This document shows, one piece after another, positions 47,531-54,866 of a DNA stretch of 64,000 bases. Below the pieces are notes generated by a model. That model was not told where the DNA came from. It made no database searches and saw only the letters and a program-made list of their open reading frames with translations. This stretch comes from Methanosarcina horonobensis HB-1 = JCM 15518 (GTDB lineage Archaea > Halobacteriota > Methanosarcinia > Methanosarcinales > Methanosarcinaceae): the NCBI RefSeq assembly GCF_000970285.1, contig NZ_CP009516.1:1405036-1469035 (forward strand). The letters are read 5' to 3'. The translations under genes were made by a program, and so were the position numbers. Positions within the stretch are counted from its first letter, which is position 1. Each line of letters begins with the position of its first letter.

Positions 47531-49144
47531 ATGAACGTGAGAAAGTATCAAGGCACCAGGGTGATTATAGCAGGAGCCCTAATACTGGTACTGGTAGCGG
47601 TACTTTTATTCAGTACTTATGGACAGACGGGGCAATCTGAAGACGAAAGTACTTTAATCCAGGCATCGTCTCACGATATCGGCGACATCAACGGGCACCT
47701 GTACGGGGGTGCTCAGATGGCGCAGGGAATGGTCTATGAAACCCTGGTGGAAAATACTGTTAACGGTCCCGGGCCAAGGCTTGCGGAGAGCTGGAATATT
47801 TCCGAAGACGGCAAGGTCTATACCTTCTATTTGCTTAAGAATGTCACATTTCAGGATGGGGAGCCGTTCAATGCCCAGGCGGTAAAAGAGAATATTGATG
47901 CGGTACAGCGGAACAAAGAACGTCATGCCTGGCTGGCGCTGGCCTCAAGGATTGTCAGCTGCGATGTCGTGGACAACTATACCGTAAAGCTGGTGCTATC
48001 CGAAGCTTATTATCCTGCACTCAACGAGCTTGGCTATACGCGCCCTTACAGCATGATGTCTCCCGGATGCTTTATCAATGGGGAAACGAAGGACGGGGTC
48101 AGCGGTTATATCGGGACCGGGCCGTATAAGCTGACCGAGCACGTGGAAGACCAGTATGCTGCCTTTGAGGCAAATCCGGATTACTGGGGGGGCGAGCCGG
48201 GCGTTAAGAAAATTATCCGGAAGGTCCTGCCCATCGGACAGACTACCTTGCTTGCGCTTCAGAAGAAAGAAGTGAACTTCCTGGTCACCGAAACAGGTGG
48301 AAATATGCTCGACGTCCAGGCAGTCAGGGACCTGGGAAAGACCGGGGACTACCGGATTACTCAGAGCGACCCGGTGTCTACTAAAATTCTCCTGGTCAAC
48401 ACAGGAAACCCGGAAAGCCCTCTTGCCGAAAAACCCGTACGTGAGGCTGTGTGGTATGCTATTGACCGGGACTCTCTGGCAAATGACCTCCTCGGCGGAG
48501 AAGACTTCCCGGCTGAAACCCTTATGTCAAAGGCGGTCCCCTATTGCAACATTGACCTGAAGGTAAGAAACTTTGACCCTGAAAAAGCCAGGCAAATCCT
48601 TGACGCGGCAGGCTGGAAACTGGAAAACGGCTCGGAGTACCGGACCCGCGACGGGAAGACACTGAAATTCAACCTTTGCTATTTTTCAGCCAAAGCCGGA
48701 CAAAAAGCGATGAGCGAGCTGATCCAGAGCAACCTGAAGGCAGTCGGGATCCAGCTTGAACTGACCGGCGAGGAAAACAATGCTTGTTATGACCGCAGGA
48801 AGACCGGCAACTACGATATGCTGTTCGACGTGACCTGGGGAGTCCCCTATGAGCCTCACTGCACCGCCAATATCCTCAAGCCCGGAGGTTCTTATGGCGA
48901 CACGACTAAAGGACTTCCTGAAGCAGAAAAACTGTATAGGAAAGTTGATGAAGTCCTTGCCAGCAGAGACGAAGCAGCGCGGAAAGAGCTGTATACCGAA
49001 ATTTTTTCGACGGTACATGAGGAAGCAAACATTATCCCCCTCACCTATGGACGCCTCACAGCAATCTCCCCCAAAAATCTTGAAAATGTCCATTTCCTGC
49101 AAAACCAGTACGAACTTCCTTTCAAGGACCTGCAATTCGAATAA
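47531..49144 (+). CDS. Nickel/peptide-type ABC transporter substrate-binding protein (NikA-like)
   Basis: A 537-residue solute-binding protein of the DppA/NikA cluster. An N-terminal hydrophobic helix (V-I-I-A-G-A-L-I-L-V-L-V-A-V-L-L-F) anchors or exports it. Body motifs: L-A-E-S-W-N-I-S-E-D-G-K near 87, F-D-P-E-K-A-R-Q-I-L-D-A-A-G-W near 350 and the NikA-like D-V-T-W-G-V-P-Y-E-P-H near 436. It is the first gene of a run of seven same-strand genes. Nickel, a nickel chelate or another metallophore complex is the most likely ligand; peptide cannot be excluded. Confidence 0.87.
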   Translation: MNVRKYQGTRVIIAGALILVLVAVLLFSTYGQTGQSEDESTLIQASSHDIGDINGHLYGGAQMAQGMVYETLVENTVNGPGPRLAESWNISEDGKVYTFYLLKNVTFQDGEPFNAQAVKENIDAVQRNKERHAWLALASRIVSCDVVDNYTVKLVLSEAYYPALNELGYTRPYSMMSPGCFINGETKDGVSGYIGTGPYKLTEHVEDQYAAFEANPDYWGGEPGVKKIIRKVLPIGQTTLLALQKKEVNFLVTETGGNMLDVQAVRDLGKTGDYRITQSDPVSTKILLVNTGNPESPLAEKPVREAVWYAIDRDSLANDLLGGEDFPAETLMSKAVPYCNIDLKVRNFDPEKARQILDAAGWKLENGSEYRTRDGKTLKFNLCYFSAKAGQKAMSELIQSNLKAVGIQLELTGEENNACYDRRKTGNYDMLFDVTWGVPYEPHCTANILKPGGSYGDTTKGLPEAEKLYRKVDEVLASRDEAARKELYTEIFSTVHEEANIIPLTYGRLTAISPKNLENVHFLQNQYELPFKDLQFE

Positions 49145-49204
49145 ACTGTGACTGTAATCGGTCTGAAAGGCGGATAATTTGCCCTGCAGGACAAGGAGAA
49201 TACC

Positions 49205-50134
49205 ATGCGCGCCTATGTAATCAAGCGGATTTTCGCTGCAGTTCCGCTTTTCTTTATCATTTCCTTCTGTTCCTTTCTGCTGATTAACCTCTCCCCGACC
49301 GACCCCGCAGAAGCTGCGCTGCGGGCAAACGATGTGCCTGTGGTCACACAGGAGCTGGTGGAGCAGACCCGGGAGCAGCTTGGCCTGGACCGGCCTTTCC
49401 TAATCCGTTACGGGAACTGGCTGTCTGACAGCCTGCACCTGAATTTCGGTCAGTCTTACGTCAAAAGGAGGCCGGTATCCAGCCTGATCTTGCCGGCCTT
49501 CCTGAACACTTTAAAGCTGGTTACGGTAACTTCGGTAACCGTCATATTTCTGTCGACGGCATTCGGAGTATTTTGTGCCCTGCGTGAAGGGAGCAGGGCG
49601 GACAAAGTCACACGTGGAGTCCTGTTCGCTTTTACCGCCGTGCCGTCCTACTGGGTCGGCATCCTGATGATATGGTTTTTTGCCGTGCGGTTAAACCTTC
49701 TCCCTACAAGCGGGATGGGGAGCGCTGCGCACTATATTTTGCCGGTCGCGGTAATGTCCTCTGGCTATATCGGCTTCTATTTTCGGCTGATCCGCAACTC
49801 CATGGTCCGCAACAACGGAGAGAATTACGTGCTGTACGAAAAGGCCAGCGGGCTGCCGGACCGTCTGGTAAACCGGCACATCCTGCGCAATTCCCTGCAG
49901 ACGGCAGTCTCAGGCTTTTGCATGGCTGTTCCCGGGATGCTGGCAGGGACTGTCGTGGTCGAAAATGTTTTTGCATGGCCGGGTATCGGCCGTCTTTGCG
50001 TTTCCGCAATTTTTGACCGGGACCTGCCGGTAGTCCAGGCTTATATTATCGTCGTGGCTGCGTTCTTCATCCTGTTTAATTTGATTGCCGACCTTGTAAA
50101 TGCGGCAATAAACCCAAAACTGAGGGAGGAGTAA
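49205..50134 (+). CDS. Nickel/peptide-type ABC transporter permease (NikB-like)
   Basis: A 309-residue DppB/NikB permease with six membrane spans and the N-terminal M-R-A-Y-V-I-K-R-I-F-A-A-V-P-L-F hallmark. The EAA-like loop (Y-E-K-A-S-G-L-P-D-R-L-V) is near residue 218. Separated by 60 bases from the binding-protein gene and 4 bases from the partner permease. GC-rich codon use, like the whole operon. Confidence 0.9.
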   Translation: MRAYVIKRIFAAVPLFFIISFCSFLLINLSPTDPAEAALRANDVPVVTQELVEQTREQLGLDRPFLIRYGNWLSDSLHLNFGQSYVKRRPVSSLILPAFLNTLKLVTVTSVTVIFLSTAFGVFCALREGSRADKVTRGVLFAFTAVPSYWVGILMIWFFAVRLNLLPTSGMGSAAHYILPVAVMSSGYIGFYFRLIRNSMVRNNGENYVLYEKASGLPDRLVNRHILRNSLQTAVSGFCMAVPGMLAGTVVVENVFAWPGIGRLCVSAIFDRDLPVVQAYIIVVAAFFILFNLIADLVNAAINPKLREE

Positions 50135-50138
50135 GCAA

Positions 50139-51002
50139 ATGCCTGTCTGGGAAAAACTCAAGCAGGACCGGCTTGCGATGTGCTGCCTCGTCTTTCTCTC
50201 GTCTGTTGTCCTGGTTGGCATTTTTGCACCTTTTTTCGCACCAAACGACCCTCTTGCTGTGGACACCTCACTGAGGTTTGCAGGGCCGTCCTTCCGGTAC
50301 CCGCTTGGGAATGACCAGTTAGGGCGCTGCGTCCTGTCCCGGCTGATCTATGCGATCCGCCCGAGCGTCCTGTATGTGCTCTTTGCCCTGTTAATTACCG
50401 TGATGATCGGCGCGGTACTGGGGATGATTTCCGGGTACCATAAGGGGAGGGTGGACAATGTAATCATGCGCCTCTGCGATGTCATGCTCTCCTTTCCCGG
50501 GGAGGTCATCACCCTTGCCATCATCGGGGTGTTCGGGGTGGGGCTCCAAAACATTCTCCTGGCCTCTATACTGACAAAATGGGCGTGGTTCACGCGGGTG
50601 ATCCGCACCTCAGTGATGCAGTTTACCGAACAGAACTATGTCCGGTTTGCAAAGGCTGCCGGGTGCAGCCCCTTTCACGTCCTGACCCGCCACATCCTTC
50701 CGATGACGTTTTCAGAAATTGCAGTCATTTTCAGCAGTTCGGTCTGCTCGATGATTCTGCAGATCTCCGGTTTTTCCTTTCTTGGCCTGGGGATTCAGGC
50801 ACCTGCACCCGAATGGGGCATGATGCTCAATGAGGCAAAGGACGTGATGCTCTCTTATCCCGCTTTGATGCTCCCTCCGGGAATCGCAGTGATGCTGGTT
50901 TCGGCTTCTTTTGGCTTTCTCGGGGACAGTCTGCGTGATGCCATGGACCCGAAACACGAGCCTGCTGCCGCAAAAAGAAGGGAAGGGAGGGCTCCTTCAT
51001 GA
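50139..51002 (+). CDS. Nickel/peptide-type ABC transporter permease (NikC-like)
   Basis: A 287-residue DppC/NikC permease. Its first half holds the N-terminal helix and the family segment L-G-N-D-Q-L-G-R-C-V-L-S-R near 50; the second half includes the EAA loop F-A-K-A-A-G-C-S-P-F-H-V-L and G-F-S-F-L-G-L-G-I-Q-A-P. It overlaps the next gene by four bases (ATGA), so translation is coupled. Confidence 0.9.
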   Translation: MPVWEKLKQDRLAMCCLVFLSSVVLVGIFAPFFAPNDPLAVDTSLRFAGPSFRYPLGNDQLGRCVLSRLIYAIRPSVLYVLFALLITVMIGAVLGMISGYHKGRVDNVIMRLCDVMLSFPGEVITLAIIGVFGVGLQNILLASILTKWAWFTRVIRTSVMQFTEQNYVRFAKAAGCSPFHVLTRHILPMTFSEIAVIFSSSVCSMILQISGFSFLGLGIQAPAPEWGMMLNEAKDVMLSYPALMLPPGIAVMLVSASFGFLGDSLRDAMDPKHEPAAAKRREGRAPS

Positions 51003-51817
51003 AAAATATACTGCAGGTAAACGGCCTTAATGTATGGGACTCCCGCAGCGGGGAAGCAATCGTCAAAGATGTTTCCTTTTCTCTTAAGGAGCACAGCTGT
51101 CTTGCCCTTGTAGGAGAAAGCGGCAGCGGAAAGTCCATGACCTGTAAAGCCATTATGGGACTGAACAGGCCCTGGATCAGCTGCTCCGGCCGTGTGGAAT
51201 TTGACGGGCAGGAGTTGCTCACACTGCCGCAGCAGAAGCTCCGCAGCCTGTGTGGGAACCGCCTGTGCATGATTTTGCAGGACGGGATGAGCGCGTTTGA
51301 CCCTTCCTGCGTCATCGGACAGCATTTCAGGGAAACCTTGAAGGAACATTTTGGCTGGACAGCCCAGCAGGCTGACGAAAGGATGGTGGAGTCCATGCTG
51401 ACAGTCATGCTGAAAAATCCGGCTGGACTTTTGAAAAAATACCCGCACCAGCTGTCAGGCGGTATGCTTCAGCGTGCAATGATCGCCCTCGCGCTGGTCC
51501 TGGAGCCGGACATTATCATTGCGGACGAGCCTACCACGGCGCTAGACACCATCACACAGTTCGAAGTGATGGAGCAATTCACAGCGCTGCAAAAGCGTAC
51601 CAGCAGCGCCATGATTTTCGTATCTCATGACTTAGGGGTCGTGAACAGGCTGGCCGATTCTGTTGTCGTGATGAAAAACGGGTCAGTTGTGGAATTCGGC
51701 CCGCTTCCGGACATTTTTGAGCACCCGCAGCAGGAATACACGCGGTACCTGGTCTCTACAAGGCAGGCGCTCGGGACGCGTTTTCGTCAGGTCCTGGGGG
51801 GAAATGAGCCGTGCTGA
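50999..51817 (+). CDS. Nickel/peptide-type ABC transporter ATPase (NikD-like)
   Basis: A 272-residue ATPase. Walker A G-E-S-G-S-G-K-S near residue 39, signature L-S-G-G-M-L-Q-R, Walker B I-I-A-D-E-P-T-T and H-loop S-H-D-L-G. Overlaps both neighbours, which places it firmly in the operon. It lacks much of the C-terminal oligopeptide-binding extension of OppD, as NikD does. Confidence 0.92.
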   Translation: MKNILQVNGLNVWDSRSGEAIVKDVSFSLKEHSCLALVGESGSGKSMTCKAIMGLNRPWISCSGRVEFDGQELLTLPQQKLRSLCGNRLCMILQDGMSAFDPSCVIGQHFRETLKEHFGWTAQQADERMVESMLTVMLKNPAGLLKKYPHQLSGGMLQRAMIALALVLEPDIIIADEPTTALDTITQFEVMEQFTALQKRTSSAMIFVSHDLGVVNRLADSVVVMKNGSVVEFGPLPDIFEHPQQEYTRYLVSTRQALGTRFRQVLGGNEPC

Positions 51818-52593
51818 CCGTAAGCCGTGTAAATAAAACCTACAATAACGGAGACTTTTTTTCAAACAACCGTCAGCTAGTCCTTTCTGACGTAAGCTTT
51901 GAGGTGCATGGCGGCGAATGTCTCGGGGTTATCGGCGAGAGCGGCAGCGGAAAATCTACTCTCGGGCGTTTGATTGCGGGGATTGAAAAACCGGACAGCG
52001 GAGAGATCCTGTTTCAGGGGCGGGACGTACAGTCGCGCGAAGTACGTCTGGGACATATCAGCGCGGTCTTTCAGGACTATTCCTCGTCAATCAACCCTTT
52101 TTTCACGGTTTTCGATGCGGTTTCGGAGCTGCTCAGGACCATGGGCCAGCACGATAAAAAGGAGGTTACACGCAGGGTTGTCGACCTGCTCGGACAGGTG
52201 GGGCTGAACGCCGGATACTGCAGCAAGCTGCCGCATGAGCTTTCGGGGGGCGAAGCACAGCGGGTCTGCATTGCGCGTGCCATCTCAACCGGGCCTCAGT
52301 TCCTGGTCCTGGACGAGGCAATCAGCTCCCTCGACACACCGGTTCAGACTCAGATACTGAACCTTTTAATAGAGCTTAAGGAGCGGTATCAGATGAGCTA
52401 CCTGTTTATCACGCACGATATTCAGGCGGTAGCCTATCTTTGTGACCGGGTCCTCTTTTTTCATAATGGGCGGGTGGTTGAACAGTCTCCGGTGTCCGGG
52501 CTGTCCCGGGTAAAAAACGAATATTCCAGAAAACTGCTTTCTTCAGTCATCCCGTTCGAAAGTAAAGAAATGAGGTCATGTCATGGAGTATAA
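51811..52593 (+). CDS. Nickel/peptide-type ABC transporter ATPase (NikE-like)
   Basis: A 260-residue second ATPase with G-E-S-G-S-G-K-S-T-L-G-R, signature L-S-G-G-E-A-Q-R and H-loop T-H-D-I-Q. Its start overlaps the end of the NikD-like gene and its end overlaps the methyltransferase start by 11 bases, so the methyltransferases belong to this transcript. Confidence 0.92.
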   Translation: MLTVSRVNKTYNNGDFFSNNRQLVLSDVSFEVHGGECLGVIGESGSGKSTLGRLIAGIEKPDSGEILFQGRDVQSREVRLGHISAVFQDYSSSINPFFTVFDAVSELLRTMGQHDKKEVTRRVVDLLGQVGLNAGYCSKLPHELSGGEAQRVCIARAISTGPQFLVLDEAISSLDTPVQTQILNLLIELKERYQMSYLFITHDIQAVAYLCDRVLFFHNGRVVEQSPVSGLSRVKNEYSRKLLSSVIPFESKEMRSCHGV

Positions 52594-54097
52594 AATACAA
52601 ACCGTTAGATGGTGGACAGAAACCGCAAATAGCTATAACAGTACCATTCAGGCAGAGCTTACCAATGAGAAACGCAGGATATGGACAGGCCTCCTGCTCG
52701 AGAATGCGCCGCGGAAAGAAAATCTGAGGGTGCTTGATGTTGGGACCGGGCCCGGTTTTTTCTCCATCCTCCTCTCTGCCAGGGGCCACCGGGTCACAGG
52801 GATCGACTGCACGCCTGAAATGCTGGAGCAGGCAAAAAATAATGCCCGGCAAGAAGGTGTTCATCCGGAATTTTTACTGATGGACAGTCACCACCTGGAG
52901 TTTCCGGACAATACTTTTGACCTGGTCGTAAGCCGCAATGTGACCTGGACCCTCTACGACCCTGAGGCAGCTTATACGGAATGGAAACGAGTCCTGAAGC
53001 CCGGCGGCAGGCTGCTTGTTTTTGATGCCAACTGGTATATGCAGCACTTTGACCCTGAGATGGAGCAGACAATGCGCAGGGGCATTTTGCAGTACAGGGA
53101 AAAATACGGGCAGCTCCCGGCAAAGTTTGCGATGTACCGCCTGGAGGAATACTGGAAAAGACTTCCGCTGGTCGGGACAAAGCGGCCCTTATGGGACCGT
53201 GCGGTGCTCTGGAAGCTGGGCTTTCAGGATATAGTGTGTGATGAAAACATCTCGTATCTGACTGCGCTCGACGATATCAGCCAGATGCTTTATGGCGCTG
53301 CTGCCATGTTTATGGTCCGGGCGACCAGAGTGACACAGGAGGAGGAAGACCTTCAGACCATAGCCGAATATTGGGACGGAAGGTCTCCGGAGCAGAGTAT
53401 TGCCTGCCTGTCCGAGCTTGCTTCTCCTCAGCGTGAAGCCTACCTGAAATTATTGAGCACCTATCTGCCTGCAGGACGGAAACTGCGTGTCTTGGACGTA
53501 GGTACAGGCTGCGGCTTTCTGGCCATACTGCTTGCGGAGGAAGGGCATGAGGTAACGGGGGTCGACATTTCTCCCCTGATGCTGGAGGAAGCTGCTTACT
53601 GTGCTAATTCCCGCAGTGCAGCCGTGGATTTCAGGCCGGACAATGCGGAAAAGCTGCCTTTTGGAGATAACTGCTTTGATCTGGTCATAAGTCGCAACCT
53701 GGTCTGGACCCTGCAAAATCCGGAAACAGCTTTTTCAGAGTGGCATCGGATATTGAAACCAGGAGGAATGCTGGTGTACCTGGACGCGAACTTTTACTTG
53801 CACCTCTTCGACCCTCAGCAAAAGGAGCAGCTTGAAAAGTTCCGCCAGGCAGCAGGGGTGCGTGAAAGCACTCCGCTCTATGGGACGGGACACAGCAGCA
53901 CGTCCGTGATGGATTCCGTTGCCCCCAGGCTCCCGCTTTCTGCCCAAAAGCGTCCGAAATGGGACAAAAAGGCACTCTCACAGGCTAGATTTCATGTTCT
54001 TGCCGCAGAGCCGTGCAGCTCAAGACTTCCCGGAGCAGAAAAAGAACAAATTCAATACGCTGCGACGCCGATGTTTTTCATCACCGCGCAAAAATAG
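52583..54097 (+). CDS. Fused tandem class I SAM methyltransferase (two domains)
   Basis: A 504-residue protein made of two similar methyltransferase domains. Domain 1 has the SAM motif V-L-D-V-G-T-G-P-G-F near residue 49 and S-R-N-V-T-W-T-L-Y-D-P; domain 2 has V-L-D-V-G-T-G-C-G-F near 305 and S-R-N-L-V-W-T-L. Each includes the F/L-D-A-N-W/F motif. The start ATG at 52583 follows GAGG and overlaps the NikE-like gene. The gene ends in TAG with an in-frame TGA backup four codons on. Domains of this type occur beside nickel/peptide importers in Firmicutes as I recall, where the methyl acceptor is not known; a metallophore or regulatory role is possible. Confidence 0.85.
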   Translation: MEYKIQTVRWWTETANSYNSTIQAELTNEKRRIWTGLLLENAPRKENLRVLDVGTGPGFFSILLSARGHRVTGIDCTPEMLEQAKNNARQEGVHPEFLLMDSHHLEFPDNTFDLVVSRNVTWTLYDPEAAYTEWKRVLKPGGRLLVFDANWYMQHFDPEMEQTMRRGILQYREKYGQLPAKFAMYRLEEYWKRLPLVGTKRPLWDRAVLWKLGFQDIVCDENISYLTALDDISQMLYGAAAMFMVRATRVTQEEEDLQTIAEYWDGRSPEQSIACLSELASPQREAYLKLLSTYLPAGRKLRVLDVGTGCGFLAILLAEEGHEVTGVDISPLMLEEAAYCANSRSAAVDFRPDNAEKLPFGDNCFDLVISRNLVWTLQNPETAFSEWHRILKPGGMLVYLDANFYLHLFDPQQKEQLEKFRQAAGVRESTPLYGTGHSSTSVMDSVAPRLPLSAQKRPKWDKKALSQARFHVLAAEPCSSRLPGAEKEQIQYAATPMFFITAQK

Positions 54098-54119
54098 TCG
54101 CAAAGGAGATGAAGAGACA

Positions 54120-54866
54120 ATGCTTCAAAAAGAAATGGCAGAGTACTGGTCTCAGGGCTCTCAAAATTATGACCGGATTATCCGGGATGAACTGCAAAGC
54201 TTCCGACCTGACCGGTGGCAAAAGCTGATTCTGGGTCAGGCCCCTAAAAAAGATAGCCTGGCTGTGCTGGATGTCGGGTGCGGCCCGGGCTTCTTTTCAA
54301 TCATCCTGAGCCAGGCCGGCCATCAGGTAACCGGAGTGGACTGTGCGGCCGGGATGCTGGAAAGAGCACGGCTCAACGCTGAATTCTCAGGGGTTTCCCC
54401 GAATTTTTTGCAGCTGGACTGTACGGAACTGCCGTTTCCGTACTGCTCCTTTGACCTTGTTGTTAGCAGGAATGTAACGTGGACCTTATCCGACCCCCTG
54501 GCAGTCTACCGGGAATGGCAGCGTGTCCTGAACCCAGGCGGAGTGCTGCTTATTTTTGATGCCAACTGGAACCTGCATTATTATGATGAAAATCTGATGG
54601 AGGAAGTCAAACACAGGGAAAAACTGTGCATTGAAAAATACGGCTAGACTTTTGATGGGGGGACACGTCCTGCAGTGAGCATCGATTATGATCTATTACC
54701 GCTCAGCTCCATAAAACGCCCTAGCTGGGACGTGGAGCAGCTTACAAAGCTCGGCTTTTCAGAGGTCAGCTCTGTCCGGGATATTACCGGTCCTCTGTGG
54801 GACGACAAAGAAAAACTGCTCTACGGAGCCACACCGATGTTCATGGTGAAAGCTGTCAGGGCATAG
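54120..54866 (+). CDS. SAM methyltransferase with in-frame amber codon (candidate pyrrolysine protein)
   Basis: A third methyltransferase of the same family, 248 residues if the TAG at 54645-54647 is read (codon 176). The part before it has V-L-D-V-G-C-G-P-G-F and S-R-N-V-T-W-T-L-S; the part after it continues in the same frame with I-K-R-P-S-W-D and A-T-P-M-F-M, which align with domain 1 and 2 ends of the upstream fusion. In domain 1 the aligned position after E-K-Y-G is Gln (CAG), so TAG may have arisen by a C-to-T change. Methanosarcina reads some TAG as pyrrolysine; a nonsense mutation giving a 175-residue remnant is the alternative. The final stop is also TAG. The start is the ATG at 54120 after AAGGAGATGA. 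Confidence 0.7.

Follow-up and report, generated by a model that had tools for sequence, protein, structure and literature searches.

Results

A methyltransferase gene with an in-frame amber codon

We analysed a 64,000-nucleotide stretch of the Methanosarcina horonobensis HB-1 genome, here called the window. Positions 47531-54866 hold a tight cluster that consists of a Cnt/Nik-type importer and three methyltransferase domains, and the gene studied here is the last of this cluster. The features are as follows:

47531..49144, + strand: NikA/CntA-type substrate-binding protein of the importer
49205..50134, + strand: importer permease (Opp1B, nickel/cobalt type)
50139..51002, + strand: importer permease (Opp1C/CntC type)
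50999..51817, + strand: importer ATPase (CntD/CntF type)
51811..52593, + strand: importer ATPase (NikE-like)
52583..54097, + strand: fused double SAM methyltransferase, 504 aa, ending in TAG (54095-54097) with a TGA four codons on
54102..54109 (approximate position), + strand: ribosome-binding site AAGGAGAT, read from the sequence
54120..54866, + strand: SAM-dependent class I (Methyltransf_11) methyltransferase frame of 248 codons with an internal TAG at codon 176 and a terminal TAG
54645..54647, + strand: in-frame amber codon 176; Ser (TCN) in 5/5 orthologs examined
54648..54863, + strand: 72 codons 3' of the internal TAG, with an invariant RPxWD, the last two strands of the fold and purifying selection kept
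54864..54866, + strand: terminal TAG, also TAG in both other Methanosarcina orthologs

The product of the TAG-bearing gene belongs to Methyltransf_11 (Pfam, E 4e-25) and carries the SAM-binding glycine-rich motif VLDVGCGPGFF at residues 49-59. Its frame begins at ATG 54120, which is preceded by a good ribosome site, and is open through codon 176 to the TAG at 54864-54866; if that terminal TAG were read, 21 further codons would follow before a TAA. We found no frameshift or second stop between the TAG at 54645-54647 and the native end. The preliminary description of this DNA had noted an unbroken frame with 72 residues beyond the amber, and the open frame and orthologs of 84-87% identity bear this out. 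It had also aligned the 72 residues with the ends of the two domains of the upstream fusion gene. This alignment holds and runs to full length, both with the fusion domains (whole-protein identity 45% and 35%) and with the separate orthologs. Because the 72 codons align with both, the frame past the TAG is not due to chance. No stable RNA structure of the PYLIS kind was found after the TAG beyond chance expectation (z -0.30).

In the AlphaFold model of the methyltransferase (mean pLDDT 92.4), a Rossmann-like SAM fold is formed by strands from 48-52 to 241-247. Residue 176 lies outside the SAM motifs, in a loop after helix 157-174, and the model is least confident in the stretch around it (block means 79 and 71). 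A large residue could be tolerated at this position. The strands 213-219 and 241-247 both follow residue 176, as do the invariant R200, P201, W203 and D204 of the RPxWD motif. As a product of 175 residues would be without two core strands, it is probably inactive.

A split enzyme, in which the 175-residue N-terminal part is complemented by a separately started C-terminal part, seems to us extremely unlikely. An ORF of 63 aa does start at GTG 54675, but inspection of the sequence revealed no good ribosome site ahead of this codon, codons 177-185 would be missing, and the homologs examined offer no precedent.

Orthologs carry serine at codon 176

The gene is present in 3 of 112 family genomes (one genome per species), M. 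horonobensis included. The two other genomes with a close ortholog are both Methanosarcina: Methanosarcina sp. UBA11020 (G026; 87% identical) and a second species (G002; 84%). The next best relatives are clostridial, at 61%, 53% and 52% identity. This distribution, with orthologs in three Methanosarcina only and clostridial sequences next in line, suggests that the gene was probably gained horizontally.

The codon aligned with the internal TAG encodes serine in all five orthologs, where it sits in the motif YGS. The preliminary description had proposed comparing the same locus in other Methanosarcina; the internal TAG is not kept there, the codon being TCC in G026 and TCA in G002. In the clostridial orthologs it is TCC (C. 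thailandense) or TCG (two clostridial MAGs). None of the five orthologs has a TAG at codon 176. TCG and TAG differ by a single transversion, and these codons are most simply explained if TCG turned into TAG once, recently and in this lineage only.

We also considered a glutamine ancestry. The preliminary description had pointed to the aligned codon of fusion domain 1, which is indeed CAG (window 53111-53113), and had placed the TAG one transition away from it. We reject this origin because all orthologs have Ser TCN. The CAG is misleading: it comes from a paralogous domain, 45% identical, and not from an ancestor.

These findings also bear on the proposal that the gene represents a new class of pyrrolysine (Pyl) methyltransferase with a functional Pyl at residue 176, or that the TAG is a switch between the metal importer locus and the Pyl supply. 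Both ideas draw on the presence of the Pyl machinery (see below) and on a frame that is intact and constrained. They are weakened by orthologs that all have Ser and never TAG, by the placement of residue 176 in a loop away from the SAM motifs, and by the terminator of the same gene, which is TAG in all three Methanosarcina. As this terminal TAG is common to the three species, TAG has long served as a terminator in the gene. The fusion gene ends in TAG as well, which bears out the earlier remark that neighbouring genes use TAG as an ordinary stop. Furthermore, known Pyl methyltransferases keep their amber across isozymes (PMC2933860). We therefore consider a functional Pyl-176 very unlikely and find a new class unsupported.

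Selection is retained after the TAG

Between this genome and G026, dN/dS of the methyltransferase was 0.08-0.14 before the TAG and 0.15-0.18 after it; values across all seven cluster genes were 0.08-0.15. Lineage-specific changes comprised 37 synonymous and 14 nonsynonymous before the TAG, and 16 synonymous and 8 nonsynonymous after it. Under a Poisson model, the neutral fraction of the branch has a maximum-likelihood estimate of 0.05-0.07 and an upper 95% bound of 0.19-0.26, each range reflecting the choice of transition bias. The codons after the TAG are under purifying selection much like that before it. An old pseudogene is excluded, and a recent onset of neutrality is compatible with the data. 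Given this constraint, the TAG must either be recent or undergo some read-through; such constraint is equally expected of a young nonsense mutation and of a gene that is read through.

A plain recent nonsense mutation would make the gene an incipient pseudogene with negligible read-through, whose function the upstream fusion gene may cover. We regard this, the main rival to the reading that we favour, as a real possibility, though we lean against it. In its favour, the TAG occurs in one genome alone with Ser in the orthologs, other genes of the same genome are broken by TGA or TAA, a related methyltransferase in another species is a real pseudogene, and the fusion gene of this very island is itself reduced to fragments in G002. 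Against it stand the absence of any further lesion and the constraint after the TAG, because of which the mutation would need to be young. In addition, zero read-through is unlikely in a Pyl-competent host (PMC2933860).

Pyrrolysine decoding and other in-frame TAGs

The genome contains intact pylS, tRNA-Pyl (anticodon CUA), pylB, pylC and pylD in one cluster at about 4.853-4.858 Mb (G000:C1); pylB, pylC and pylD were assigned from gene order and sequence. The in-frame TAG expected of these genes is present in two copies of MtbB and in one MtmB, which were identified by sequence. TAG terminates about 5% of genes (26/508; 86/1839 genes). In such archaea UAG is both a sense and a stop codon, and an amber introduced into uidA, a foreign reporter, is reported to have given 20-30% Pyl read-through in M. 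acetivorans (PMC2933860). The usual model is competition between release factor and Pyl-tRNA, with no signal needed (PMC9499178). As the whole Pyl system is present and the codons that follow the TAG remain constrained, insertion at codon 176 is plausible, and Pyl may well be inserted there. The preliminary description had framed the codon as pyrrolysine or nonsense. Nonsense stands as its origin, in the form of a changed Ser codon; Pyl insertion keeps the standing of a possibility that the Pyl genes and the constraint allow.

We surveyed 2.77 of the 5.02 Mb genome for nonsense breaks and found 8 TAG, 8 TGA and 2 TAA breaks spanned by an in-genome paralog. The TAG share (8/18) is not a significant excess over the mutational expectation of 33-41% (p 0.2-0.45); a hand-curated subset of 14 breaks gave p 0.05-0.16, on which we do not rely. 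Ambers are not rare in this genome, and since their share shows no significant excess, we cannot claim that they are spared.

Further lone in-frame TAGs were seen in a PEP-synthase-like gene, an alpha/beta hydrolase, two PocR-domain kinases (PocR/PAS histidine kinases), a receiver domain, a transposase and a sugar nucleotidyltransferase. The lone TAG sites are:

G000:C1 1023786, + strand
G000:C1 1092487, - strand
G000:C1 1823347, - strand
G000:C1 1834841, - strand
G000:C1 2125284, - strand
G000:C1 2546004, - strand
L065:10328-10762

A PAS histidine kinase (G000:C1:2528089-2530611) carries two in-frame TAGs without any further lesion; its relatives within the genus are without stops. In another species (G011, L072:1232-1730), a related methyltransferase with a TAG, a frameshift and further stops is a true pseudogene.

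A sequencing or assembly error at codon 176 would have to alter one base only, and a single genome of the species was compared. This explanation is highly improbable, given a complete genome in a single contig in which the other lone TAGs and the known Pyl codons look normal.

Discussion

The closest precedent for this gene is Thg1, the tRNA-His guanylyltransferase of M. acetivorans, which like our methyltransferase is a non-methylamine gene. M. acetivorans Thg1 has a species-specific in-frame amber that can be read as Pyl, and Pyl is reportedly not essential for its activity (PMC2933860). The two genes share an amber in one species where relatives have sense codons, in a genome with complete Pyl genes. 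They differ in that Pyl has been physically observed in Thg1, whereas for codon 176 of the methyltransferase it is a prediction.

A second comparison is with MtmB, MtbB and MttB. These are also methyltransferases by name with an in-frame TAG in a Pyl-decoding host, but they are corrinoid-dependent enzymes with no SAM fold, and their amber is conserved between isozymes. The gene described here encodes a Rossmann-fold SAM enzyme outside the corrinoid-dependent family, and its amber is not conserved, with Ser in every ortholog. Nor does it look like an old pseudogene, as it has no further lesions and purifying selection is not lost after the TAG.

It has been argued that in-frame UAG codons can arise by neutral drift (PMC3639795). 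The candidates of that study, for example in Thermincola potens and M. acetivorans, resemble our case as single random UAG changes kept by drift in a Pyl organism. However, each candidate there was a cluster of two or more frames with a UAG, whereas the methyltransferase amber is a lone one. Class I SAM methyltransferases of the Methyltransf_11 group (e.g. PDB 3mgg, 5mgz) have the same fold and SAM motif; the identity of the TAG-bearing gene to such solved relatives is 13-24%, none being close, and it differs from them in sitting in a CntA/NikA-type importer cluster.

Based on these results, we favour an incidental, recent Ser-to-amber change that is probably leaky in a Pyl-decoding host, with Pyl having no selected role; we hold this to be the probable explanation, with moderate confidence. 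We propose that codon 176 of this methyltransferase, whose gene was probably gained horizontally, recently turned from a Ser codon, most simply TCG, into TAG. As tRNA-Pyl (CUA) and PylRS are kept, release factor and Pyl-tRNA would be expected to compete at 54645-54647. The majority of ribosomes would stop, which would yield the 175-residue fragment. We infer that a minority would insert Pyl in the loop and produce a 248-residue protein that is probably active. The TAG would thus be tolerated and not used.

If the TAG were instead a switch, full-length methyltransferase would scale with the supply of Pyl-tRNA and be made mainly on methylamines. Such a switch would tie a metal-import locus to methylamine metabolism, but we give it very little credence for the reasons listed above.

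Under the explanation we favour, an incidental and probably leaky amber, the novelty is low, and nothing suggests a job for pyrrolysine at codon 176. This methyltransferase adds no member to the set of proteins that require pyrrolysine. The gene illustrates cleanly how stray ambers may occur in the ordinary genes of an archaeon that decodes Pyl. An annotation pipeline would take a gene of this kind for a broken one, though some full-length protein may be made.

The importer and related loci

The substrate-binding protein of the importer passed the NikA model TIGR02294 (530.6 bits, cut-off 393) and scored 675.4 against the CntA model, below its cut-off of 800. G+C is 52-53% in the cluster genes tested versus 43% in the window. 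We found no described function for loci that combine such methyltransferases with Opp-type transporters. Our guess is that methyltransferases modifying a metallophore or another imported ligand would fit a Cnt-like importer.

The whole importer-methyltransferase cluster is kept in G026. In G002, the ortholog of the TAG-bearing gene lies behind another Opp transporter and is preceded by fragments of the fusion gene (L050:8766-9090; 73-75% identical); there, the double methyltransferase is broken and the ortholog is intact. Such methyltransferases also lie beside Opp-type transporters in clostridial loci (e.g. L039, L040). Similar methyltransferase pairs recur in several Methanosarcina, and in M. 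horonobensis itself five related methyltransferases occur among Opp/Nik-type ABC transporter genes at G000:C1:2928431-2957228.
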